From positions 1-21,133 of the forward strand of contig CALSCO010000550.1 of NCBI GenBank assembly GCA_943704415.1: a DNA stretch of 21,133 nucleotides, written 5' to 3'. The position numbers were made by a program, and so were the translations under genes. Of this stretch, positions 449 through 21,133 are shown piece by piece. Numbering within the stretch: the stretch's first letter is position 1; each line of letters begins with the position of its first letter. The notes below the pieces were generated by a model that worked only from the letters and a program-made list of their open reading frames with translations, ran no database searches and had not been told where the DNA came from. The DNA is from Parvularia atlantis (Eukaryota; Opisthokonta; Rotosphaerida).

Positions 449-1477
449 TCAGCGTCGGTCGGGCGAGTCCTCCGAGTCGACGACGACGGCGACGACGACG
501 GTGATGTCGTCGCGCTTGCCGCCCTCAAACATCATGCCCTGCTCGACCGCGCGCAGCTCGTACGGCGAGCGCCGGCGGCGGTCGCAGGAGGCGTCGTAGG
601 CCTCGTGCACGAGGCTCTTGGCGAGGGCGTCGAGGTCGAGCGGGAGCGACGTGGGCGAGGTGCTGGCCCAAGGGTAGATGTGCTTGCGCACAAGCTCAAG
701 GATCTCTTCGTCAAACAGGTTGTCGAAGAGGCCGTCGGTGCCGACGATGAGCAGGTCGTTGCGCGTGACGGTGAGGGTGCGGGCGATCACGTCGGTGACG
801 GTGTCGCGGCTGTGCGCGCCCAGCTGGTACGGGAAGTTGAATGCATGCACCTGCTCGACCGAGCGGAAGATGGGCGCGCCGTTGCGCACGAGCAGCGCGC
901 CGCAGTCGCCCAGCTGGGCTAGGCGGAGCGTGTCGTCCTGCACGGTCGCGACCAGCGCGGTGCTGCTGCCGAGGACGCTCGCGGTCTGCGCCGCGGCAAA
1001 CTCGAGCAGCTGCTGCGGCGTCTCGTTGGTGAAGAACTGGTTGGCGCGCTCGAGCTGCGCCGCCGCGTGGTGCATGAGCAGCCGCGCGTACAACTGCGAG
1101 TTGGCCTTGTCGCGCTCGTCCCACCCGCTCACGCCGTCGGCCACCCCGATCCCGTCCGCGCGCACGAAGAACGCGTCCGCGCCGAACCCGCCCGACTGCA
1201 GGTCCACCTCGGTCATGCCGGACGGCAGGCCCGCCGGCACGTGCCACGACATGGGCGACGACGGCAGTGGCGAAGGCAGAGGCGCCGCGCTGGCTGTCAC
1301 GGACGCGCGCTTCTCGACCGGCGCCGCGCGCCCCTCGGCCGCGGCGCGGAACTGGTACACGGGCGGGCGCAGCACCGTGCGCGGCCTGAACGTGTCAAAG
1401 TACTCGAAGATGTCGGGCGGGCGGTGCTCGTGGCGCAGGACGCGCGACGCCGCGGCGCGAAGGCTGCGCGCAGCCAT
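449..1477 (-). CDS. PP2C-family protein phosphatase, PPTC7-like
   Basis: An uninterrupted reading frame of 342 codons encodes a metal-dependent Ser/Thr phosphatase. PP2C landmarks appear in order: ADAFFVRADGIGVADGVSGW (first metal-binding Asp-Gly), GSSTALVATV, LGDCGALLV, GTDGLFDNLFDEEI and, near the C-terminus, KRDDITVVV. The ADGVSGW and FDNLFDEEI versions are typical of the PPTC7/Azr1 branch, which in animals and yeast acts on mitochondrial proteins. I chose the ATG at 1477 (MAARSLRAAASRVLRHEHR) because it gives an Arg/Ala-rich, acid-free amphipathic leader like a mitochondrial presequence; the frame is open to 1510 but has no ATG there. The mitochondrial location is inferred. The gene is intronless, unlike its intron-dense neighbours. 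It is transcribed away from the DnaJ gene across 125 bp. Confidence 0.9.
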   Translation of the reverse strand: MAARSLRAAASRVLRHEHRPPDIFEYFDTFRPRTVLRPPVYQFRAAAEGRAAPVEKRASVTASAAPLPSPLPSSPMSWHVPAGLPSGMTEVDLQSGGFGADAFFVRADGIGVADGVSGWDERDKANSQLYARLLMHHAAAQLERANQFFTNETPQQLLEFAAAQTASVLGSSTALVATVQDDTLRLAQLGDCGALLVRNGAPIFRSVEQVHAFNFPYQLGAHSRDTVTDVIARTLTVTRNDLLIVGTDGLFDNLFDEEILELVRKHIYPWASTSPTSLPLDLDALAKSLVHEAYDASCDRRRRSPYELRAVEQGMMFEGGKRDDITVVVAVVVDSEDSPDRR

Positions 1478-1602
1478 ACATATATGCTGCCGTTGGAGGT
1501 TAATAGACAACTTCGCCTGTACTCGAGCGTGTCACAAACGCTGAGCGTGCAGCGGGGGCGAGGCGCGGCGGAGGCAGAGCAGAAGGGTAGACAGGAGCAC
1601 GG
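1478..1602. promoter_or_regulatory. divergent promoter region, PP2C / DnaJ
   Basis: These 125 bp separate two divergent ATGs, so both promoters must lie here or overlap the genes. The PP2C side holds a short A/T island, CATATATG at about 1478-1485, and TTAATAG around 1500-1506. The rest is GC-rich without a recognisable element. I saw no heat-shock element here, although one of the genes is a DnaJ. Confidence 0.45.
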
Positions 1603-2628
1603 ATGGCCGGGCCACGCGCAAACTACTACGAGGTGCGCGGTGGTCGCACGTGCGGGCGGGCAGCCTGAGCGCGGCGCGCGGTGTCTGACACCGTGACGCG
1701 ACGGCGCGCTCGCGGTGTGTGACATGTTGCCCATCTGGCGCGCCTGCTGGCTGAAAGGTGCTCGGCATCGAGCGCGATGCGAGCCCGACCGAGGTCAAGG
1801 AGGCGTACCGCCGCCTGGCCAAGCAGCTGCACCCGGACAAGAACGGCGGCACGAACGAGGCCAAGGAGCGGTTTCAGCTGCTGAACGACTCGGAGGGTGC
1901 CGCTTCTCACGCTGCCGCAGCCGTAAACACTGGGTCCCGTGGGCTGACCGCGCACGGCGCGCAGCGTACACGGTCATCAGTGACAACACGAAGCGCGCGC
2001 GCTACGATGGCTGCCTGGACGCTGGCGTGGACTACGATGAGCACGGTGTTGCGCGTGCTCGCGTTCAGTCTGGGTTGCGATGCCGTCAGCTGAGTTGCGC
2101 CCGCCGCGTCGCAGCCCGGCGGCAACCCGTTTGCCCCGTTCGGCGCGGGCGCGGGCGCAGACGGCGCGCCGATGCCCGAGATCTTCGAGGAGCTCTTCAA
2201 GGGATTTTTCGGCGCGGCACAGGCCGACTTCCAGCGCGAGCGTGCGTGCGACCCGACGCCATCGCGACCGTGGACCACGCAGCGTGCTGAGCGCATCGCC
2301 GCGCCCGCCAGCGTTCAGCGCCGCCTACCGCAATGGCCACGCGCCTTCGGACCACGACTACCACAACCGCCACGTCCCGCTCGTGCCCGTCCGCCTCGTC
2401 GCGTCGTACACGCTCGAGGAGGTGGCGCAGGGCGCGACGAAGCGGGTGTGTGCGCGCGCGCGAAGCGCACGACGGCAGGTCGCTCACGCACGCTCGCGGC
2501 GCCGGCAGCTGCACTTCCAGCGCAACATCCCGTGCGATGGGTGCCGCGGCACCGGCGCGGCGTCACGGTCGCAAGCGGACGTGGACATGTGCAAGGCGTG
2601 CAAGGCGCGCACTCTGGGCACTGGCATG
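1603..2628 (+). CDS. type I DnaJ (HSP40) co-chaperone, 3'-truncated
   Basis: Exons 1603-1632, 1758-1896, 1965-2047, 2115-2241, 2312-2445 and 2509-about 2628 join in one frame. The protein begins MAGPRANYYE/VLGIERDAS and carries a full J domain (residues about 8-75) with the Hsp70-stimulating HPD motif in KQLHPDKNGG and the closing RARYDG. A linker with a MPEIFEELFKGFFG segment follows. Next comes the client-binding strand region (VPVRLVASYTLEEVAQGATK), and then the first zinc-finger unit, CDGCRGTG, and a second Cys pair, CKACK. After that DnaJ similarity stops: the remaining zinc-finger units, C-terminal domain II and stop codon are absent. The DNA instead reads as a YbjN-like gene on the other strand. 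Family members are about 350-420 residues; about 205 are present. Introns are 63-125 nt. The third intron needs a GTTGCG donor at 2048 to hold the frame. The gene is real, but its 3' end is missing or displaced. Confidence 0.85.
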
Positions 2629-2666
2629 TGCATGCGCCGCAACTGCGGCCTGACACGCTGCTGCGC

Positions 2667-3077
2667 GCCGTCGCCAAAGGCCTGGGCCGCGCGGAAGCGC
2701 AGCTCGCCGTCGTTGCAGTCGACTTCGTACGTGCCGATGCGTAGCTTGTAGTTGACGCGCGTGACGAACTCGATGGCCATCGCAACCTGGCCTATCGGCA
2801 CCTTGCCGTCGTACTTGGCGTAAAGCACGGCGATTTTCTGGTCCGTAACGACCTTCATCCGGAACTCGACGCGGAGGCTGGGTGCCAGTGCGGGCGCGTG
2901 TCACACACCGACTCGGACCTCAGGCTGCCAGTCAGGTGGGTCGCGCAGCCTGAGTGCGCACCCGTCGTTCGCGGTCATGAAGAAGTGGTAGACGGTGTCG
3001 TTGCCCTCGCTCTTGCGCTCGAAGCGCAGGCCGCGGCCCGTGAGCTCCTGGTTGAGCGCGGCGTCGACCTGGGCCAT
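2667..3077 (-). CDS. YbjN-domain protein, 3'-truncated
   Basis: The ATG at 3077 opens MAQVDAALNQELTGRGLRF. An 84-nt intron (2878-2961, donor GTGCGC, acceptor CCCAG) joins in phase 2 to an exon reading LRVEFRMKVVTDQ. The block from about residue 58 on, with EFVTRVNYKLRIGTYEVDCN followed by DGELRFRA, matches the core of the YbjN family (type-III-secretion-chaperone-like fold; known from bacteria, cyanobacteria and plants), where the usual form is FLTRxNYGLxIGNFELDxxDGEIRY. The family's C-terminal helix, roughly 40 residues usually ending near a MDRY motif, is missing. Past 2667 the strand turns into the antisense of the DnaJ zinc finger. The gene is transcribed divergently from the MLKL-like gene, 62 bp away. 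YbjN proteins have no settled biochemical role. Confidence 0.72.
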
Positions 3078-3139
3078 GATCGTGTGACACCAAACACGAA
3101 CATTCCAGAAGGTCGCCCACTTCCGAGTCGGCCCTCGTC
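3078..3139. promoter_or_regulatory. 62-bp divergent promoter with a perfect heat-shock element
   Basis: Only 62 bp separate the YbjN-like ATG (3077, minus) from the MLKL-like ATG (3140, plus). At 3098-3110 the plus strand reads GAACATTCCAGAA, which fits GAAnnTTCnnGAA: three inverted 5-bp units, the minimal strong binding site for an HSF trimer. It lies about 30 bp from the plus ATG and about 20 bp from the minus ATG. There is no TATA box. Heat-shock control of one or both genes is inferred from this site alone. Confidence 0.6.
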
Positions 3140-6100
3140 ATGGACACGGCCGGCGCCGCCCTGGCCGTGGCCAGGGTCGTGCTGGGCAAGATCCGCGAGC
3201 TGCGCAAGTGCAATGAGAACTGCAAGAAGCTGGCGGTGCAGGCCGAGACGTGCGTGCCGATCCTCGAGCACCTCAGCACGAGCATCACGCCCGAGCAGCT
3301 CGCGGACGACCAGCTCGCGAGAGCGCTCGACATGACAAACGAGGCGCTCGAGGACGCGCAGAGCTACGTCGAGGACGTGCTCAAGCAGGAAGGCGACTTG
3401 TGGCACCCGTTCCTCTGGGCCACGTTCCACGCGAAGCAGATGCTCATGGGCCGCAACGCGTTCCTTGAGACGTCGTGGAAAATGGAGGTGGGCCTCAGCA
3501 TGCTGAACTTGGCCGTCTCGTCGGCGACCTACACGCACGTTGTAAGACTGTGGGACCGCCAGTTGGACCGCGACCGCGAGGACGCCGAGTTCGAGCAGGC
3601 GCGGCTGCGCATCATGCAGGAGCGTGACGTCAGACAGGCCGAGCGCGACAAGGCCCTGTTCGACGAGCTGCAGCGGCTGCGCAACATCATCCAGGCCAAC
3701 AACGCCCTTGGTCAGATGCCCACCGCGCCCGCCCGCCCGGCGCCACAGCAGCAGGTGCGGCGGCGCGCGCGCGCCCCGCCACCCGCCATCCGTGCTCACG
3801 TGCTCGCTCACTCGCCGCGCGCAGCGCTACTCGTCGGGTGGCAGCGCTGCCCAGGCGAACCAACAAAACATCGGCAAGTGTGGCTGGGACAACAGCTACA
3901 TGCGCGAGATCGGCAAGGCGCTTGAGATTGATCTGGGGCCGGCCGTGCTCGACGACGACCTGAACGCACTCTCGCTCGCCGACGCGGTGAGCCTGCGCAC
4001 GCTGTGCGCGCCGAGCCATCTGGCTGACGCTGCCCCTGTCGCCGCGCACAGTTTGACAATGTGGAGGAGTTTGGCAAGCCCACGCCGCGGTACCTGCCCG
4101 ACCTCAAGGTCACGGGCTGGTCGTGCGACGGCTGCCTGCGCGACGGCGAGGTCGTTCGCTTCCGGTGCGACGAGTGCGTCGACTTTAACCTGTGCGGTGT
4201 GTGCTACAACGTCAACATGCAACCGCTCGCCCACTCGATCTTCCACGCCATGTCGTGGAACGTGGACAAGACCGCGGGCGAGGTGCGCTCGGAAGGGAGG
4301 GTTGGTCGCACTTGAGAGAGGGCTGACGACTTGCGCAGGCCGAGAGCATCAGGCTGTTTATGGACAAGGGCCGGCACACGCTGGCCGCACTCAACGCGCT
4401 GCAGGACGCGCTCAAGCACATCGGCGGCCCGATCACGCCCGCGTCGTTCAGCCAGACCAGCCATCGGCTGCGCACGCAGAGCCTGGTGCGTGCGCGCGCA
4501 GCCGGCCCACGGCGACACTGATGCGCATCGCGCGCGTGCACAGCAAAAGCGCCCATCGGTGTACAACTACCCGAGCTTTGTCTTGAGATTGCTCAACAAC
4601 AAGACCAAGCTGCGGATCCAGCAGGCCGAGCACGTGATGCTCTTGGGCGCGAACGACGTCTGGGGCTGGCTCTCGACCATGGACTTCTCCAACGGCGAGG
4701 TCGGCCAGCCGCTGATCATGCACGCGTTCGATCCGGCCCTGATCCCGACCGGCACGACCGTCGCCGAGCTCAACGCGGCGCTGACGGTCCTGCCCCAGCC
4801 CAACCCGCGCATGATCTCGCATCGCAGCCTGCACAAGATCGACGTGTTTGAGGCCGACATCAAGAAGACCACGCCGCTCGTCGTCGTCGTCTCGCCCGAC
4901 CTCATCGTCGGCACGCTCGGCGGCCTCGTCCCGCCGCACAAGCTACCCGAGAACATGGCCGTGCCCGTGCTGCTGCAGGTGGCCGACGCGCTCAAGTTTG
5001 CCCACCGCACGGGCTGCGTCCACGGCCAGCTCTCGCCGCACAACATCTTCCTGCGCCACGTCCCGCCCGTCTCCAAGGCGCTCGCGACCAAAGACGTTGT
5101 GCTCACGTCCGTTTGCGTCAGCTACTTCCACCTGGCCCTGCCCGCGGCCAAGATGGCGCCGATCCGCGAGGCGCCCGAGATGCGCTCGGGCGCGCTCACA
5201 CCCGCCACGGACGTGTACCTCTGGGCGGCCCTCGCCGTGTCGCTCCTGCCAAAGACCTACTCGGCCGAGCTGGCCGAGCTGATCGAGCTGTGCCTGCGCG
5301 AGAACCCGCACGACCGGCCCGCTGACGGCACCGAGCTGGTCAGCCGCCTGTGCACCCTCTCCATCGTTAAGCCGCTTCTCAAGGCCGTGGGCGGCGCGCT
5401 CAGCCTGTGGATGCTAAGCGACGGCTGGTTTGCTGCCCCGCCGACCGTCGAGCTGCGCCCGATGAACCGCTCAGAGATGCGCTTCTCCTCCGTCGCCGAG
5501 GCCGTGGCTTACGGCACAAACGACTTTCTCGAGCCGGTCGACTCGGTCTCGCGCCACGTGCTCAGCTCGAAGAATACGCAGCTGTGCGCGCGCCTGCGAG
5601 CGATCAGCGCCAACCGCTTCGCCGCGCGCGACATCCGCTTCACGGCCGCCGCCATCCTCACCGAGCCGTTTGAGCACCGCTCAGGGTACCTCAAGGCGAT
5701 CATCCACGTGGCGGCGCTGCCGCTCGACTTTTTCAAACAGAAGAACGCGGCCAATTACAACAAGGACGATCTCATGCAGTTCATCGCCAACGCCGTCTGC
5801 ACCGCGTGCATGACTGCATCCAACCAGCGCTTCCGCTCGCTCGACCTGTTTGTGCGCGAGCGACCGCAATATCCTGACCGTCGCCGAGGTCGTCGCGGCC
5901 AACATGCAGGGCATGCAGTACTTCCTGCTCCAGCGCGACGTGCGCTCGCGCCTGGACCTGATCCTGTTTGAGGTCTACTCGAGCGCCGAGAGCGTGCGCG
6001 ACACCTACATGACCGAGATCAACCGCCAGAAGGAGTTTGTCAGGCACGACCTGCGCGCCACGACCGACATCGCCGCCGGCGACGGCCCCATCACCGTCTT

Positions 6101-6584
6101 CGTCAGCAGCAGCGGCACGGCCAGCAGCAACTCGGGCAAGCGCCTCGTGGCCACCGCCGGGCGCAAGATCACCGACGGCGTCGTCGGCACCACCGTGGTC
6201 GAGAACCGGTTCCTGCTCGCGATCGACAGCGTCCAGATCGGCACTGCCCCGGGCCACGTCGAGCCGCTCAAGCGCTTCAGCGCCACACGCACGGCCGTGC
6301 TCGAGGCCCTCAATGGCAAGTCGTCGACGCTCGAGATCTGCCTCGGCGTGGCCACGCCGCGCTGGCAGCGCACCTTTGTCGACACGGCCGCGGTCGTGCG
6401 CTCGGTCGCGGCCGCGGTCACGAGCCTGTGGCCACGGATCGTCGCGCGCCCGCTCAAGATCGTGCTGCTCCTGGCCAAACCGGAGGAGCATGTCGAGTTT
6501 GGCGACGAGGGGCACGTGACCGTGCGCAGCAGCGCGGACGTGATCGACCTGTTCCGCTTCTGCGTGCCCCACCACCAGGCGTGA
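3140..6584 (+). CDS. MLKL-like four-helix-bundle / ZZ zinc finger / pseudokinase protein
   Basis: Six exons (3140-3754, 3825-3986, 4052-4282, 4339-4485, 4544-5851, 5910-6584) give about 1045 residues. Residues 1-150 form a helical bundle of the MLKL N-terminal/HeLo type, with KCNENCKKLAVQAETCVPIL and a hydrophobic helix after KMEVGLSMLNLAVSS. A long charged helix (about 155-190) sits where MLKL has its brace. Residues 284-324 are a complete ZZ finger: C284-x2-C287, C298-x2-C301, C307-x2-C310, H320-x3-H324. Residues about 395-650 are a kinase fold without catalytic residues: HGQLSPHN (545-552) replaces HRD, no DFG is found and no beta-3 Lys is evident, but APE (595-597), DVYLW (608-612) and a C-terminal HDRP remain. 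Residues about 690-1045 match nothing I know. MLKL itself is a pseudokinase with HGK in place of HRD. A signalling or membrane-acting role is inferred. The last intron (5852-5909) restores the frame; a 37-nt version ending GAG at 5888 is also possible. Confidence 0.82.
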
Positions 6585-6698: not shown

Positions 6699-7207
6699 TC
6701 AGTTATTGGAGAAGCGCGGGTCAAGCAGCACGACGTCGACGATCTCGGGCAGGCGGTCGCGCAGCGTGAGGAAGGTCGGACGGCGGGCCGGGTCGTGCTG
6801 CCAGCAGTTTTGCATGACGTCTGCCAGCTGCTCGGGCGGAAGGGCGGCTGCGGGCACCGCGATGTCAGCAAGGTCGTGTGTGGGCGCGACAACGTCGCGG
6901 CACCTGCAGCGTGCCGTCGCGGACGAGCGACGGCAGCATTTTGAAGTTCATTTTGCGGTCGCTGTACGGCATCGACTTGATCCAGACCTCCCACATGGTG
7001 ATGCCGTAGCTGAACACGTCGGAAGGGAACGTGACGTCCTGACCCATCAGCGCCTGCGCCACACGCGCGTCCATCAGCGGCAAGCGCGCGAGCATCGCCA
7101 CGTGCACCTCGGGCGAGGCGTAGAGCTCCGTAACGCCCTCGACCTGGTGCCGATCGTGACGGCGAGGCCAACGTCGCCAATCTTGACCGCTTCGTGTTCA
7201 TCGGCAT
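6699..7207 (-). pseudogene. 3' fragment of a TKL-like protein kinase
   Basis: The last exon (6699-6847) encodes LPPEQLADVMQNCWQHDPAR followed by RPTF, which is kinase subdomain XI, and ends SNN-stop. A 46-nt intron (6848-6893, CTGAC branch, GCAG acceptor) joins it in phase 1 to an exon reading DVFSYGITMWEVWIKSMPYS, the helix-F region, with an SPE at the end of the activation segment. Further 5', LDADEHEAVKIGDVGLAV fits the strand before DFG plus a DVG variant, at the right distance from SPE, but it is one base out of frame with SPE near 7146-7150. No catalytic loop, no N-lobe and no start exist, and there is no room for them before the ABCB gene. On the plus strand the same bases become a VWA domain. 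I read this as a truncated gene copy; a sequencing or assembly error is the alternative. Confidence 0.65.
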
Positions 7208-7379
7208 CCAGCTCAACGGTACGGGCGAATCGGCTCTCAAGCGCCTGGCCGCGTCCGGCGGCGACGCGGCCGCGTTCTACAACTCGCGCGACATGGACCT
7301 GTCGGAGATCTTTGACCGCATCGCCGTCAGCCTCCAGGTCCAGACCACCATGGGCCACGTGCAAGCCACGCGCCGCTGA
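7158..7379 (+). pseudogene. 3' fragment of a von Willebrand factor A (VWA) domain protein
   Basis: The open frame ending at the TGA at 7377-7379 reads RFVFIGIQLNGTGESALKRL, a GGDAAAFYNSRD stretch and MDLSEIFDRIAVSL. This is the classic end of a VWA fold: a buried beta strand (FVFIGI), a short helix, a glycine-rich turn with a Tyr/Asn pair, then the last amphipathic helix. DGEAN at 7158 resembles the DGxAN after beta-4 of VWA domains, but it lies closer to FVFIGI than usual and overlaps the antisense kinase motif, so the true left limit lies between about 7158 and 7215. No MIDAS DxSxS and no 5' exon precede it. It is truncated at its 5' side and ends 63 bp before the converging ABCB stop. Confidence 0.55.
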
Positions 7380-7442: not shown

Positions 7443-10400
7443 TCATTCAGATGGCGCGGGCGCGAGCATCGCCGCGTAGGCCCCGCCCTTGCGCTGTCGC
7501 AGCTGCTCGTGCGTGCCGCGCTCGACCACGCGCCCAGCCGCAAACACGAGGATCTCGTCGGCCTGCGCCACAGGCCTCCGCCGTCAGTGCCATCGTGCGC
7601 GGCTGCCGCGCCCACACCTGCGCGATCGTGTGCGCCTGGTGTGCGACTGAGACGATCGTGCGCCCTCGACGGCGTTGCTCTTGCTCGAGCGTGCGGCGCA
7701 CATGCGCCTCTGATTCGGCGTCCAGTGCGCTCGTCGCCTCGTCCAGCAGCAGCAGCGCCGGGTCGACGATGAGCGCGCGGGCGAGGGCGATGCGCTGCCG
7801 CTGCCCACCCGACAGCATGGAGCCCTGCGGCGGCGCGTCAAACCGGTCGCCCATCCCCGCACGAGCCCCTCGGCGCACCCGTTCGCCGGCACGCGTCTGA
7901 TACCCGTCCGGCAGGGCCTTGACAAAGTCGTGCGCCCCTGCTGCCGTCGCGGCGCGCACGACGTCTTCATCAGAGGCGAGCGGCCTGCCGTAGGCGATAT
8001 TGTCGCGAATGCTTGGCGCGAATCGTCAGGGCGACCGCTCACGACGACACAGGCAACCGGAGCGCACCTCAGGTCAAAGACGTCTGCGTCCTGCGCCACC
8101 AGGCACATGCGCGCCCGCAGCGGCGCAAGCGCCCACTCGTCCAGCGCATGGCCGTCCAGCAGGACCACGCCCTCGTCCGGGTCGTACAGCCGCTGCAGCA
8201 GCGCGAGCAGGGTAGACTTGCTGCGCACGGGAAGGTGAGGCATGCTGCTTCGGGGCAGCTACAAGCGCACACCCGCTGCCTGACTGGCCGACCACGCCGA
8301 CAAAGCTGCCGGGCCTGATGAGCGCGCTGACGTCCTCCAGGGCGGCGGCGTCGGGGCGCTGCGGGTACGCGAAGCCGACACGTTGCAGATCGGCGTGCGC
8401 GGGCTGCGATCCGCGTGTCTCGGTCGACCGCTTGCCTGCCCGCACCAGCGCACCTTGTGTTCGGCTGTGCCGGCAAAGCCGCCGCTGCGCTGCAAGTCGA
8501 TGCGCACCGGCACTCGGTCGATGATCGCGTACAGCTGCTCGAGCACCTGCCACGCCTCGCCGAGCCCGTTCACGACGCGCTCGACGGCCACGCCCGTCGC
8601 CGCCGAGGAGACCGTCACCGTGATCATGACCGTCAGCAGCGCCTGGTTGGTGATCAGGCCCGCCAGCAGCAGCTGCCCACTGTACTGCAGCCCGATCGAG
8701 AACACGGCGATCAGCAGCGCGTCCTGCAGACCGCTCGCGGCCGCGGTCACGGCGGCCTGGCGCACGGCCAGCCGGAAGGGCTGCTCGAGCAGCGCGCTAA
8801 AGTGCCGCACGAACCACGCCTCTTTGGCCAGCTGGCGTGCGGGCGTTGGGTGAGCAGTGGCCGGCCGCCCGTGGGCAGCGGTGCGGGCGCACCAGCGTGA
8901 TCTGTCGCGCGTTGCGAAGTGCTTGTGCGGCGTACTGCATCGGCTGCTCGTATATGGCGCGCGCTTGCAGGGCGAACCTGGTTGACGCGCGCTCAGGTCG
9001 CTGTGCTGGGCCGCCCCCGCCCCTCAGGTGCACACACCCAACCAGCGTGCGCCCGTGCAGCAGCGACACGGCGGCGATGGCCGGGATGCACACGAGCATG
9101 AGCAGCGTCAGGCGCCAGTTGCTCCAGAACGCGATGCTGAGCCCGAGCACGCCCATGAACACGCCCTTGACAATCTCGCCCAGCAGCGCGCCCGACAGCG
9201 ACTCGACCGCGTGCATGTCGCCCGCCAGGCGCGCACACAGCCGCCCGGGCGCGTTCTCGGGCGCATCGAAGAACGCCTGGTCCTGGCGCATCACGGCCGC
9301 AAACAGGTCCGCGCGCAGCCGCTCGACGCTGTTGTGTACGTCGCGGCCTATCAGGGCACGTGCTCGCGCGCCACGCAGCCGCACGCACAAGTACGCCTTA
9401 GAGCGGCCAAAGCACACCCACACGACGGCGTGGTACAGCAGCGACCACATACCGAGACCGGCCAGCATCAGCGTCCTGCGCGGGGCGTCACGCGCCGCCG
9501 GACACGGCCCTCGCGCGCACACACCACGTGCCGTACGGCCCCGGCTGTCCGTTCCTGTCGAGCGCGAGGTCGGCGATGAGCCCGGCGAGCACGACGCCTT
9601 GCATCGGCGGAAGCAGGCCCTCCATGACCGAGCCCACGACGCCGCCTGCGATCAGCCCTCGCAGCGGCCACACCAGCTCGCGCAGCCGCGCCCAAGTCAG
9701 GCGCGGCGTCAGGCGCGGCGTCAGTCGCAGCGGGGCCGCAGAGACCTCTGCCGCGCGCTCCACCAGCTCGGTCTGCGTGTGCAGCGGCGCACCGTGCGAG
9801 ACGCTGCGAGGACCAAGCCGTGTTCACTGCAAAGTCCGTCACAGCAATCGCCGCGCGCGCGCACCCGTTCTGGAGGCCGGCGGGAGGCGGCTTGCCGCGC
9901 TCGGTCGCCGCCGCCGATACGAGCTGGCTGAACCGGCTCTGGCGCCGCTGCCGCAGGGCTGCCGGCGTGCCCGTCTCGACGATGCGGCCGTCCTCGAGCG
10001 CCACCACGGACGCGCACGAGCGCAGGGCGTTGTTGCGGTGCGAGACGACGATCACCGTGACCGTCAGCGCTTGCGCAGCGACTGCGCCCGCGAGCGTCGG
10101 CCGTCGCAGCGAGCCGCGGGGCACGCACTGGCCATGTCGAGCGCGCGCTGCACGTCGGCCTCGGCGTGCGCGTCCAGTGCGCTCGTGGCCTCGTCGAGCA
10201 GGAGGATCCTAGGGTTCTGCAGCAAGACGCGCGCGATGGCGATGCGCTGCGCGATGTATTACTCGCCGCCATGGCGCAGCACCGCCGCGCGACGCACTTG
10301 CTGCTGCCCGCCGCTGAGGCCGCTGTTCCAAGCCGACACGCGCGTATTGTAACCATCCGGCAGGTGCGTGATAAAGTCGTGCGCCTGCGCGATGCGGCAC

Positions 10401-11757
10401 ACGCGCTCTGCGGCCGGAAGCACGTGAGTGCCACGCGTGCAACTAAACCCGAGCAAGCGTCGCACCGACGTCGACCTGCGAGACCGTGTCCGGATCGTCG
10501 GCGCCCAGCCGCACGTTGTCGGCCACCGTCCCGTCAAACAGCACCACGTCCTGGCTGACGATGCCGATTGCACGTCGCAGCGCACGCAGGTCGAGCTCGC
10601 GCACGTCCACGCCGTTCACGAGCACCGCGCCCGCACTCGGCTCATACAGGCGCAGCAGCAGGTGAAACAGCGTGCTCTTGCCCGAGCCGCTGCGCGCGAC
10701 GACGCCGACGCTGGTCCCCGGCGCCACGTGCAGACTGAACCCGTCCAGCACGCGGTGCTCCGGGCGCGCAGGGTACGCAAACACCACGTCGCGAAACTCG
10801 ACGCTCCACGGCGAGCCGTCGTCGAGCACGGCCATGCCCGCGCTGTCCGCTGCGCGCGCGTCTGTCCCACTGCTCTCGATCACGTCAAACAGCTCGGCCG
10901 CGGCCGTGCGCCCCTGCGACACCGCCTGCACGTAGTTGCCGAGGTTGCCGACTGCGGTGACGCCTGTACGAGCGCGCGGGTTGGCACGCCCGCTGCGTTT
11001 GCCGAGGGGGTGTGCGCGCACCAAACGCGATCTGCGTGAACGTGCTCATCACGTCACCCGGCGACATCAAACCCAGCGCGAGCAGGTAGCCGCCCGCGTG
11101 GAAGCTCGCGGCGATGGCCAGAAACATGGTCAGGTTGTACAGCCTGCGTGCCAAGGCTCAACTCGACGCAGACCGTGGGCCGGCGTGAGCGTGCGCACCC
11201 CCAGCCGAGGCCGAGCACCGCGCTGTTGCGCTTGAGCGTCGCGGTGACGTCGCCGAGGTTGCCGACGTAGCGCTGTACCTCGCGCGCCTGCATGTTGAAC
11301 GTCACGACGGTACGCATCGACGAGAGGGCCTGCGCGTCGTTGAGCGTGAGCGGCCAGCTCGCAGGACGGCGCCAACCGCACCTCCTGGGCGACCTTGGCC
11401 GCGCGGGCGTACGCGTCCAGGGCGCGCTTGTCGTTGTCGCCCGACACGGCCCACATCCGGTTGAGCACGACGCCTGCGCGGCTGCAGCGTGAGGCGCTGC
11501 TGCAGAGCACCGCAAACCGTCGCTGCACCAACGACCGGGAACACGGCCAGGACGACGAGCGCGAGACGCCACCCTGCGAGACGCGCGCGTCAAGAGCCGT
11601 CGCGCCCAGCAGCAGCAGGCGCGGCAGCAGTGACGCACCGGACCACAGCGCGGCCGCGACGCCGCTGACGAACGTGACCAGGCTCTGCACGATCATCCCG
11701 ACCTTCTCGCCCACGCCCTCCTGGTACACGGGCACGTTGCTGCCGACCGTGGCCCGT

Positions 11758-18600: not shown

Positions 18601-21133
18601 GTGCGAGCGCGTGCTGCTGCGGCTGCTCACGACCGTCAAGGCGTTTGTCTTCAAGGTGTGGTGGCGCGGGGCTGCGGCCGTTCGCGGCTGACCTGCGCGC
18701 GTGGCAGTTTCCGCACCCGATCTTCCGCGAGGGCACAATCTTCTGCTCGGAGCTGTGCCGGCTCGTGCTGCGGTGCGCATGCGCGTCTGCTCTCCAAGTG
18801 GGCGCTGACAACGCGACGCAGGTACTGCTCGTCGGTGATCTCGAGCGTGCGGCAGTACGCGGCCGCGTTGCTGTACCTGCTGATGAAGAAGAACTTTGAG
18901 GCAACCAACCAAGACAACTTTATGAAGGTGAGTTGCCTGCGCGCAGGCAGAGTGTGGTGCTGAGTGGGTGCGTGTGCAGGTCCGCGTCCAGGTCACGGTG
19001 GCGCTCGCCAAGCTGTCGCTGAAGGAGGACGAGTACCTGCGGCGCTCGTTCGCAACGGTGCTCGAGTACTCGGCCAACGACAAGGAGCTGGCCAAGACCA
19101 AGTTCCCCGCGCAGGTCAAGGACGCGATCGAGAAGCTCTTCGTGATCCTGCGCGACTCGGTCAAGATGAACGACGTCAAGGACGACATCGACATGACGTG
19201 CGACATGCACTACCGCATCGCCAAGGGTTACATGAACGCGCCCGAGCTGCGCCTGGCATCGCTGGAGGTGCTCAAGGGTCTGCACCACAAGGCACGGCCG
19301 GCGTGCTGTAGCGGCGGTCGCTCGGGCTGACGGCGGGGCGCGCAGGAGGAGAACTTTGCGGAGATGGCCGTGTGCATCCTGCACTCGGCCGCGCTCGTCG
19401 CGCAGTGCCTCCTGACGATGCAGCAGAGGCACAAGACCGACATTGACCTGACCGGGCTGCCGCAGGGCGCCAAGGCGTTTGCGTACATCTCGCCCAACCT
19501 GGTCGAGGAGGAAGGCGCGAGCACGGTGCGCGCGCTCTGCCAGCAGAGCGCGCACAGGCGGCGCTGACTGGCTGCTGTGCAGGAGGGCGAGGGCATCGGC
19601 GAGTCGCCGTCGTTCAGCGAGCAGGGCCTGACGAAGATGATCGAGTCGTCGATCCACCACCTGGCCAAGGTTCTGCGCAACGCGTTGTGGGCGGGACCAG
19701 GCGCTCAGCGCCGCACGCAGGCGTCGATGTACGAGACGATCAACGACGTCTACAAGCTGCTCCTGCCGATCTACGAGAAGAACAAGGAGTGGGAGAAGCT
19801 GAGCACGGCGCACTTTACCATCCACAAGCACCTGACCGAGCTCGTTCAGTCGGTGCGCTGCTGCCGGGCGCTCTGGCCGCTCACGCCCACACGCTTTGCG
19901 CGCGTCGCCGACAGAACAAATCGGGCAAGCGGTTCCTTGGCACGTACTTCCGCGTGGCCTTTTTTGGCAGGCTCTTTAGCTCGCTCAACGGGCAGGAGTA
20001 CATCTACAAGGAGAAGAAGATCACGCGTCTGGCGGACGTGTCGCTGCGGATGGAGGTGAGCGGTTGCCCGCTGTGCGCGTTGTGCGTGGGCTGAGGACGG
20101 GGGGTCGCGCCGCAGGACTACTACAGCAAGCGGTTCAAGCCGGAAAACTTTGAGCTGATCACGGACTCGAACACGGTCGACCCGGCCAAGCTGAACCCGA
20201 ACAAGGTGCGCGCCGTGTGGGCGTGCGGACGTGCTGCTGAGCGTAGCGCGCGCGCGCGGCAGGCGTACCTGCAGATCACGTTCGTGGAGCCGTACTTTAC
20301 CGAGGACGAGCTGAAGACGCGGACGTCGTCGTACGAGCGGTCGAGCCTGATCAGTGCGGACCTGGGGGCTGCGGGCGCGCTTGCTGACGCGCGTCGTTGC
20401 GTAGAGCGCTTCTACTATGAGACGCCGTACACGCCCGACGGCAAGCCGCACGGTGGCGTGGACGTGCAGTGGAAGCGCAAGACGATCCTGGCGACGGAGA
20501 TGTACTTCCCCTACGTCAAGCGGCGGCAGCTGGTCGAGACGCGGCATGTGATCGAGATGAACCCGCTCGAGGTCTCGGTCGAGAGCATAGCCAAGCGCTG
20601 CGAGGCACTGCAGGCCGCGATCACGGCGCGCGAGGCCAAGACGCTGCAGGTGGTGCTGCAGGGCTCGGTACGGTTGCAGGTCAACGCCGGTCCGCTCGAG
20701 ATCGCCAACGCGTTCCTGGGCGTGGACAAGCGGCAGCAGGTGGGTCTGCGCGCGCGGCGCCCCTGAGCGGCTTGCTGACGACGCGTGCGTGCGGGTGACA
20801 GTACGACCAGGGGCTCGTGCGGCAGCTGATGCAGAACTTTGCGATGTTCCTGCGGCTGTGCTACGAGGCGCTCAACCTGAACCGGAGGTGTGCGCGGTCG
20901 AGCGTGCGCCGGGTGGTGCCGGCTGATCGCGTCGTGCATGTACAGCCTCGTCAAGCACGACCAGCGCGCGTACCAGGAGGACCTGGAGGAGGGCTACGAG
21001 GACGTGAAGCGGCAGCTGGTGCCGTTCCTGGACGCGTCGCTGCTGACGGACGTGAACAAGAGGTGCGTCACGTGCAGGTGCTTCGTGGCCGTCCTCGGCT
21101 GCGTTGCGGGCGAACACACGATGCAAGGCCTCG
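12647..21133 (+). CDS. DOCK-family Rho GEF, class C/D (DOCK7/zizimin) type, 3' end beyond window
   Basis: Forty-eight exons joined by 47 complete introns give 1913 residues without a break before the window ends inside intron 48 (from 21063). The N-terminal region has AIDYDKLLKE, DPVRSLLLFPEDDVSF and YTADWFVVNRKYEAL, the signature of the DOCK-C/D N-terminal domain. SEPFFGILALYDLQAKKKIS and FHFDLN follow. DHR-1, the phosphoinositide-binding C2 module, spans about residues 575-735, with TLYVYPVMLNMNKYQG and HHILFSFYHIGCK. A long helical-repeat middle follows. DHR-2, the catalytic GEF region, runs from about residue 1340, with MHYRIAKGYMNAPELRLASL, AVCILHSAALVAQ, RFLGTYFRVAFFG, YLQITFVEPYF and VLQGSV/GPLEIANAFL. 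It should load GTP on Rac/Cdc42-type GTPases and drive actin remodelling. No PH domain is evident, more like class C than D. ATG 12647 is the first ATG in the frame that splices onward. Only the last few residues can be missing. Confidence 0.94.
13192..13252 (+). other. GC-AG intron in the DOCK gene
   Basis: The exon ending LLKEKKK (AAG at 13189-13191) must join in phase 0 to IIDKDPVRSL at 13253. The intervening 61 nt begin GCGCGC, contain CCTGACG and end GCGCAG. No GT in the right phase is available, so the donor is GC. The exon before it is supported by DOCK similarity (AIDYDKLL). Confidence 0.75.
15160..15213 (+). other. probable GC-AG intron in the DOCK gene
   Basis: The exon ends LVPVK (AAG), then GCGCGCC, a CACTGACATG branch motif and a GTGCAG acceptor before PFANDTD. 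A GT donor six bases upstream (GTTAAG at 15154) would also keep the frame and drop Val-Lys, so the GC donor is likely but not certain. Confidence 0.5.
15497..15546 (+). other. GC-AG intron in the DOCK gene
   Basis: The exon ends GANAMK (AAG at 15494-15496), then GCACGC and a GCGCAG acceptor before AIYGKSSSKAF. Phase 0 on both sides, with no GT at or near the boundary. The branch motif is weak (CTTAC). Confidence 0.7.
18157..18171 (+). repeat. T15 homopolymer inside a DOCK intron
   Basis: Fifteen consecutive T lie 5 nt inside the donor of intron 18152-18213 (GTGCG then T15). The intron has a CTGACG branch motif and ACACAG acceptor and is required by phase. It is the longest A/T homopolymer in the window. 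Confidence 0.85.
19292..19345 (+). other. GC-AG intron in the DOCK gene, DHR-2 region
   Basis: The exon ends LKGLHHK (AAG at 19289-19291), then GCACGG, a GCTGACG branch motif and a CGCAG acceptor before EENFAEMAVC. Nearby GT dinucleotides are all in the wrong phase. The conserved DHR-2 sequence on both sides fixes the boundary. Confidence 0.75.

Follow-up and report, generated by a model that had tools for sequence, protein, structure and literature searches.

MLKL, the executioner of necroptosis in vertebrates, carries a helical bundle from residue 1, a long helix (the brace) next to it, and a dead kinase domain at its C terminus. Its permeabilization of membranes is triggered by phosphorylation. 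The catalytic loop of MLKL reads HGK, and its brace runs into the kinase domain without an inserted domain. We analyzed a contig of 21,133 nucleotides (CALSCO010000550.1; the window is this entire contig, with 67.7% G+C) from an assembly of 16.25 Mb in 616 contigs. At positions 3140 to 6584 on the plus strand, we found a gene whose predicted product resembles MLKL in the order of its parts: a putative bundle from residue 1, then a predicted long helix, and further on a dead kinase domain. As in MLKL, HG stands in the place of the HR of HRD, and there is no DFG. In contrast to MLKL, a ZZ zinc finger (residues 284 to 324) lies between the helix and the kinase domain. The protein also differs from MLKL in its length (about 1045 residues versus about 470; the chain length in 4btf is 469), in a score for the Pfam family MLKL_N that falls below the cutoff, and in an apparent histidine, seen by eye, at the position of the kinase β3 lysine.

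MLKL-type proteins are also described in plants (PMC10951266). The AtMLKLs and wheat Pm13 share with the protein described here an MLKL_NTD/DUF1221 bundle, a helical brace, and a kinase-like domain; the differences are that catalytic activity is predicted for the Pm13 kinase and that the available text of that report mentions no ZZ finger. In fungi, according to the available parts of PMC12881547, HELL domains occur together with kinase or pseudokinase domains in one protein. The fungal HeLo/HELL proteins differ from this one in that many are linked to NLRs and amyloid motifs (PMC12881547), and the Pfam HeLo profile has no match here. The ZZ finger resembles those of MIB1, KCMF1, HERC2, and p62 in its ligands and their spacing, and these proteins are among its best matches in the Protein Data Bank (PDB). 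To our knowledge, none of the four has an MLKL-type bundle plus a pseudokinase.

The gene has strong coding bias and canonical introns, and we conclude that it is real. Its ATG is at 3140. Upstream, a stop codon ends the same frame immediately ahead of 3080, and no further ATG lies in between. Residue 1 is therefore well defined, and the putative bundle begins at the N terminus of the protein. The exons are at 3140 to 3754, 3825 to 3986, 4052 to 4282, 4339 to 4485, and 4544 to about 5851 to 5863. They are separated by four introns of 70, 65, 56, and 58 nucleotides, each GT-AG and each in phase 0. G+C content at third codon positions (GC3) is 0.83 to 0.94 across the five exons and 0.95 over a downstream frame at 5865 to 6581. 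These data bear out both the limits of the gene and the coding status that the original prediction had assigned to it from sequence alone. Exon 1 (GC3, 0.93) holds the MLKL_N-like bundle and the brace-like helix. Exon 2 (residues 206 to 259; GC3, 0.83) and exon 4 (residues 337 to 385; GC3, 0.94) are linkers, exon 3 carries the ZZ finger, and exon 5 (4544 to 5851 in the gene model) carries the pseudokinase and the start of a C-terminal region.

The assignment of the ZZ finger is secure at the level of sequence. Exon 3 encodes the eight ligands in full, as three C..C pairs and a final H...H, over residues 284 to 324 (4124 to 4246). The ZZ profile PF00569 scored 24.4 bits on the exon frame, over its cutoff of 21.4, and 24.9 bits in the genome search; inside an 825-residue model of the protein, the score was 18.8 bits. 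The complete eight-ligand finger that had been predicted is thus present. The best PDB sequence matches were MIB1 (E, 3e-5), a fission yeast ZZ protein, and KCMF1, followed by HERC2, plant BIG, and p62. We found six other places with a ZZ finger in the assembly (L001 to L006), each over the cutoff, and the profile matched in 0 of 14 control genomes. The finger of L001 sits in an open frame of 988 residues.

Exon 5 carries the C-lobe of a kinase from which the catalytic aspartates are missing. In the place of HRDxxxxN, we found HGQLSPHNIFL, and there is no DFG. The equivalent of the catalytic loop, VHGQLSPHNIFL, is at 5018 to 5053. We found by BLASTP that residues 124 to 269 of exon 5 are collinear with a real kinase, P0001, from helix E to helix I; in this alignment VHGQLSPHNIFL is opposite VHRDLKPANIMV, APE is opposite SPE, and TDVY is opposite TDIF. 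APE, the aspartate of helix F (the D of TDVYLW), and the arginine of helix I (the R of DRP) are all retained, in order. The PK_Tyr_Ser-Thr profile scored 23.2 and 23.1 bits on two exon 5 references, against a cutoff of 23.1, and 20.9 bits in the 825-residue model. The Pkinase profile scored 21.3 and 21.2 bits, under its cutoff of 31.7, and reversed exon 5 gave no kinase match. Among the PDB sequences, the best 60 of 112 matches were all named kinases, with LRRK2 at the top (E, 0.0033). Nine NCBIfam families, five of them kinase families, matched exon 5 at E values up to 1, each with a score far short of its cutoff. Of the other four, three are ThiP permease models, among them the top family (E, 2.2e-5), and the fourth is helicase-like. 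We took the ThiP match, which lies at residues 203 to 298 of exon 5 and extends into the C-terminal region, as a chance match.

Taken together, these data suggest that exon 5 encodes a pseudokinase at about residues 386 to 650 (4544 to 5338), with landmarks in the C-lobe and a putative N-lobe whose limits were set by eye. The predicted kinase domain with HGQ and without DFG held for the C-lobe by sequence, with a profile score at the cutoff. No tool confirmed the N-lobe, and a single-sequence model of exon 5 did not yield a usable fold (mean predicted local distance difference test score [pLDDT], 34.3).

The best Pfam family for exon 1 was MLKL_N (24.0 bits; E, 2.9e-5), with residues 6 to 114 on profile positions 3 to 106; the bundle itself would span residues 1 to 130 (3140 to 3529). 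With residues 1 to 128 alone, MLKL_N was again the top family (E, 3e-5). We found no MLKL_N match in nine controls (one reversed and eight shuffled versions of exon 1), for which the best E value with any family was 0.0017. Searching the PDB sequences with residues 1 to 128 by phmmer gave 10 matches at E values up to 10, and 6 of them were MLKL chains. These six belong to one family and are not independent, each is nonsignificant (E, 0.67 to 1.2), and they are collinear with the start of MLKL as far as one printed alignment shows. When the whole of exon 1 was used, two of seven matches were MLKL chains, at ranks five and six.

A single-sequence model of exon 1 predicted helices at residues 3 to 20, 26 to 47, 56 to 84, 89 to 103, 112 to 125, and 131 to 191. 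Only the last of these, the brace-like helix (3530 to 3712), was modeled with confidence. The order of helices in this low-confidence model fits a four-helix bundle followed by a brace, with no significant fold match. The model also places a short helix between h3 and h4, a feature that is described for MLKL and HeLo-like domains in the available text of PMC9815663. When the model was compared with known structures by Foldseek, MLKL chains made up 5 of the 50 best rows among 192 matches (four entries; E, 0.87 to 2.6).

In the assembly, exon 1 is the better of two places that MLKL_N matched at E values up to 1 (24.5 versus 17.8 bits). We rejected the second, L009, which by eye is the coiled tail of an apparent ammonium transporter.

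We consider it likely, and well short of certain, that the N-terminal domain is truly homologous to the MLKL/HeLo bundle; an MLKL-type bundle is supported but not proven. The original prediction had named a HeLo/MLKL-type bundle followed by a brace-like helix. The bundle gained the top Pfam family and the clean controls, and it did not gain a score over the cutoff or a confident fold. The helix is present at residues 131 to 191 in the single-sequence model alone. The outcomes that would have refuted that prediction, an unrelated coiled coil at the N terminus or the lack of a kinase fold, were not obtained, but the fold models of both regions are weak.

We tentatively favor the view that the gene encodes a divergent MLKL/HeLo-type effector, with a ZZ finger and a pseudokinase, of what is probably a microbial eukaryote. 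We regard this as quite possible and put it a little below an even balance. According to this model, the N-terminal bundle would be the membrane effector and would be autoinhibited at rest. The long helix would transmit the signal and help with oligomerization, and the ZZ finger would serve as a docking site for a partner protein or for an N-terminal peptide. The dead kinase domain would restrain the bundle until its shape is altered by a partner or through phosphorylation by a kinase. A layout of bundle, transmitting helix, docking finger, and shape-switch kinase fits an autoinhibited effector. Related bundles are described as membrane attacking or death inducing in the available parts of three reports (PMC12881547, PMC10197012, and PMC10951266). 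By analogy, we infer that autoinhibition, oligomerization, membrane permeabilization, and cell death may apply here as well.

Several results weigh against this reading. The MLKL_N score is under the curated cutoff (24.0 versus 27 bits) and drops to 20.3 bits (E, 4.3e-4) inside the 825-residue model. MalT, a glycoside hydrolase, and rootletin (E, 0.078 to 0.45) outranked MLKL when residues 1 to 128 were searched against the PDB, and MalT and ClpX-type chains did so with the whole of exon 1. The exon 1 model is of low confidence (mean pLDDT, 59.9; predicted template modeling score, 0.34). None of its 192 Foldseek matches reached an E value of 0.001, the first rank went to a bacterial helical protein (E, 0.18), and superposition of the MLKL rows was poor (root mean square deviation, about 12 to 14). 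No MLKL chain was among the best 50 VIA-align rows. The HeLo profile (PF14479) had no match in the assembly at E values up to 1, with no candidate passing the initial screen, and none on exon 1. The inserted ZZ finger and a tail of about 390 residues are unlike MLKL, and the frame of the gene may be broken near 5852 to 5910.

Conservation does not help the argument, as searches of the protein collection turned up no relative of the MLKL type. With the 825-residue model as the query against 5.8 billion proteins, no relative was found at an E value of 0.001 among 7,995 candidates scored. Residues 1 to 160 of a 654-residue prefix gave no protein match at an E value of 1 among 1,466 candidates. 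The sole match to exon 5, again among 7,995 candidates, was P0001 (E, 5.7e-3), an ordinary kinase. We suspect that this collection is poor in eukaryotic proteins, and the absence of relatives does not show that the protein is an orphan. In scans of viral contigs, which detect only close relatives, exon 5 had no pattern match, and exon 1 had 10 stretches, none of which was confirmed. No paralogue of exon 1 (E values up to 0.1) or exon 5 (E values up to 0.01) was found in its own assembly, which may be incomplete. From about residue 650 onward (about 390 residues), we found no Pfam match and no PDB sequence match under an E value of 0.18, and NCBIfam had no match on 5865 to 6581.

The main rival to a membrane effector is a signaling scaffold without killing activity. 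Here the MLKL/HeLo/DUF1221 bundle would be genuine and would serve in protein contact or membrane anchoring, and the ZZ finger and dead kinase would recruit partners. ZZ fingers and pseudokinases are frequent scaffolds. Consistently with this, ubiquitin ligases and p62, an adaptor in autophagy, are among the best PDB matches of the finger, residues 1 to 130 have a net charge of −6, and helix 1 is only moderately amphipathic. In addition, the authors of the work on wheat Pm13, for which an active kinase is predicted, leave open in the available text what its N-terminal domain does (PMC10951266). In contrast, related bundles are described as attacking membranes or causing cell death (PMC12881547 and PMC10197012, as far as the available text goes), and there is no positive evidence for a scaffold. 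We consider a scaffold unlikely.

A different question is whether the gene is intact. Exon 5 is in one frame and the final 225 to 240 or so residues are in another, and the pattern of G+C bias places the switch at about 5850 to 5910. A scan found 10 candidate GT-AG introns that restore the frame, of which 3 combine a GTGC donor with a CAG acceptor. Two of them, 5852 to 5909 (58 nucleotides) and 5852 to 5918 (67 nucleotides), are also similar in length to the other introns and would give proteins of 1045 and 1042 residues, respectively. The C-terminal region, taken from 5919 on, ends at a TGA stop at 6582 to 6584, and its frame is open back to 5814. The codon usage score of 5853 to 5909, a stretch held out of the reference, was 1.72, compared with a median of 1.33 for coding pieces (in-sample and overlapping) and at most 0.40, in any frame, for the four introns. 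Because its codon usage is coding-like, a frame break is favored over a fifth intron. We lean toward a break, from an assembly error or a true one, near 5852 to 5910, and a canonical intron would also account for the change. The gene had been called complete, in one spliced frame of about 1045 residues. A canonical intron would yield that length, but the codon usage speaks against it, and the lack of any recognized domain in the final 390 or so residues leaves completeness further in doubt.

The gene might be a pseudogene or misassembled, with an early end or another tail, which would be compatible with each of the other readings. Besides the coding-like stretch between the frames, the adjoining minus-strand kinase gene points that way: by eye, it too seems to switch frame, at about 7150, and a frame on the plus strand overlaps it. 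In contrast, codon bias is strong before and after the change alike (GC3, 0.92 and 0.95), which speaks against decay of long standing. A canonical intron can account for the change as well, and all of the recognized domains lie upstream of it. We regard decay or misassembly as rather doubtful.

The second rival for the N-terminal domain, and the weakest, is that the MLKL_N match arose by chance, so that the domain would be an unrelated helical dimerization region of a ZZ-pseudokinase adaptor; the subcutoff score, the unrelated chains above MLKL in the PDB, Foldseek, and VIA-align searches, the 17.8 bits reached elsewhere in the assembly by a coiled tail with no relation to MLKL, a below-cutoff MLKL_N match in 1 of 14 control genomes, and weak matches of exon 1 to other Pfam families all point that way, but we find it improbable given the E value of 3e-5 with 0 of 9 controls, the confinement of the match to residues 6 to 114 outside the long coil, and the 6 collinear MLKL chains among 10 PDB matches.

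If the gene does encode an effector, it might contain its own trigger. The ZZ finger would read a danger signal, which might be an adaptor or an exposed N-terminal peptide. The dead kinase would act purely as a shape switch, and the bundle would open the membrane. We offer this as a speculative and, on balance, improbable extension. In the available text of the reports on p62, its ZZ domain binds N-terminal degrons (PMC5524641), and the contact between p62 and RIP1 depends on that domain (PMC12775214). By analogy, this literature may be a lead, and is not evidence, for a docking or sensing role of the finger here.

The neighborhood of the gene holds a second kinase. At 6699 to 7220 on the minus strand, tail-to-tail with the MLKL-like gene, a tyrosine/TKL-like kinase is represented by its C-lobe (PK_Tyr_Ser-Thr; E, 2.7e-6; 6865 to 7197), with its stop about 115 bases from the stop of the MLKL-like gene. 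By eye, it has DVG for DFG, in addition to the frame change near 7150. It is conceivable that this kinase activates the adjoining effector. An open frame at 7134 to 7379 on the plus strand, which by eye resembles the last part of a VWA-type domain and has no Pfam match, overlaps the kinase on the opposite strand. This suggests a misjoin or an inversion in the assembly. On the other side, at about 2484 to 3079 on the minus strand, is a divergent gene whose YbjN-like match is weak (E, 0.012) and does not reach the cutoff. By eye, only about 60 bases appear to separate its start from the downstream ATG at 3140, so that a shared promoter region is possible.

Elsewhere on the contig, we found a PP2C-type phosphatase (449 to 1531, minus strand; E, 2.7e-10), a DnaJ J-domain (1755 to 2090, plus strand; E, 7.4e-15), and an ABC transporter (8797 to 11045, minus strand; membrane region E, 3.3e-18; ATPase E, 2.8e-15) flanked by frames, to about 7447 and 12204, that by eye are like a second half. 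A DOCK-type exchange factor at 18932 to 20763 on the plus strand has DHR-2 lobes A, B, and C (best E values, 6.4e-12, 1.3e-21, and 4.9e-11, respectively) and probably continues past the end of the contig. The introns, the DHR-2 lobes, and the ZZ fingers indicate that this is eukaryotic DNA. The actin family, with 27 matches in the assembly, is a weaker marker of eukaryotes and was also matched in 5 of the 14 control genomes.

The domain order had been put forward as undescribed among MLKL proteins, and this survives. Literature searches that combined MLKL with "ZZ-type zinc finger" or were directed at protists returned no MLKL-type ZZ protein, as judged by titles in a limited search that lacked most subscription papers. 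Within that scope, an MLKL-type protein with a ZZ finger is an undescribed architecture. MLKL-type executioners are known from animals, plants, and fungi, according to the available parts of PMC11476962 and PMC12881547. If the reading with a built-in trigger is correct and the lineage is a protist, this protein would be an MLKL-like death effector with its own sensor outside those three groups. A ZZ-inserted version, possibly from a protist, would bear on the age of lytic cell death and on how a pseudokinase switch and a docking or sensing finger may be combined in one chain.

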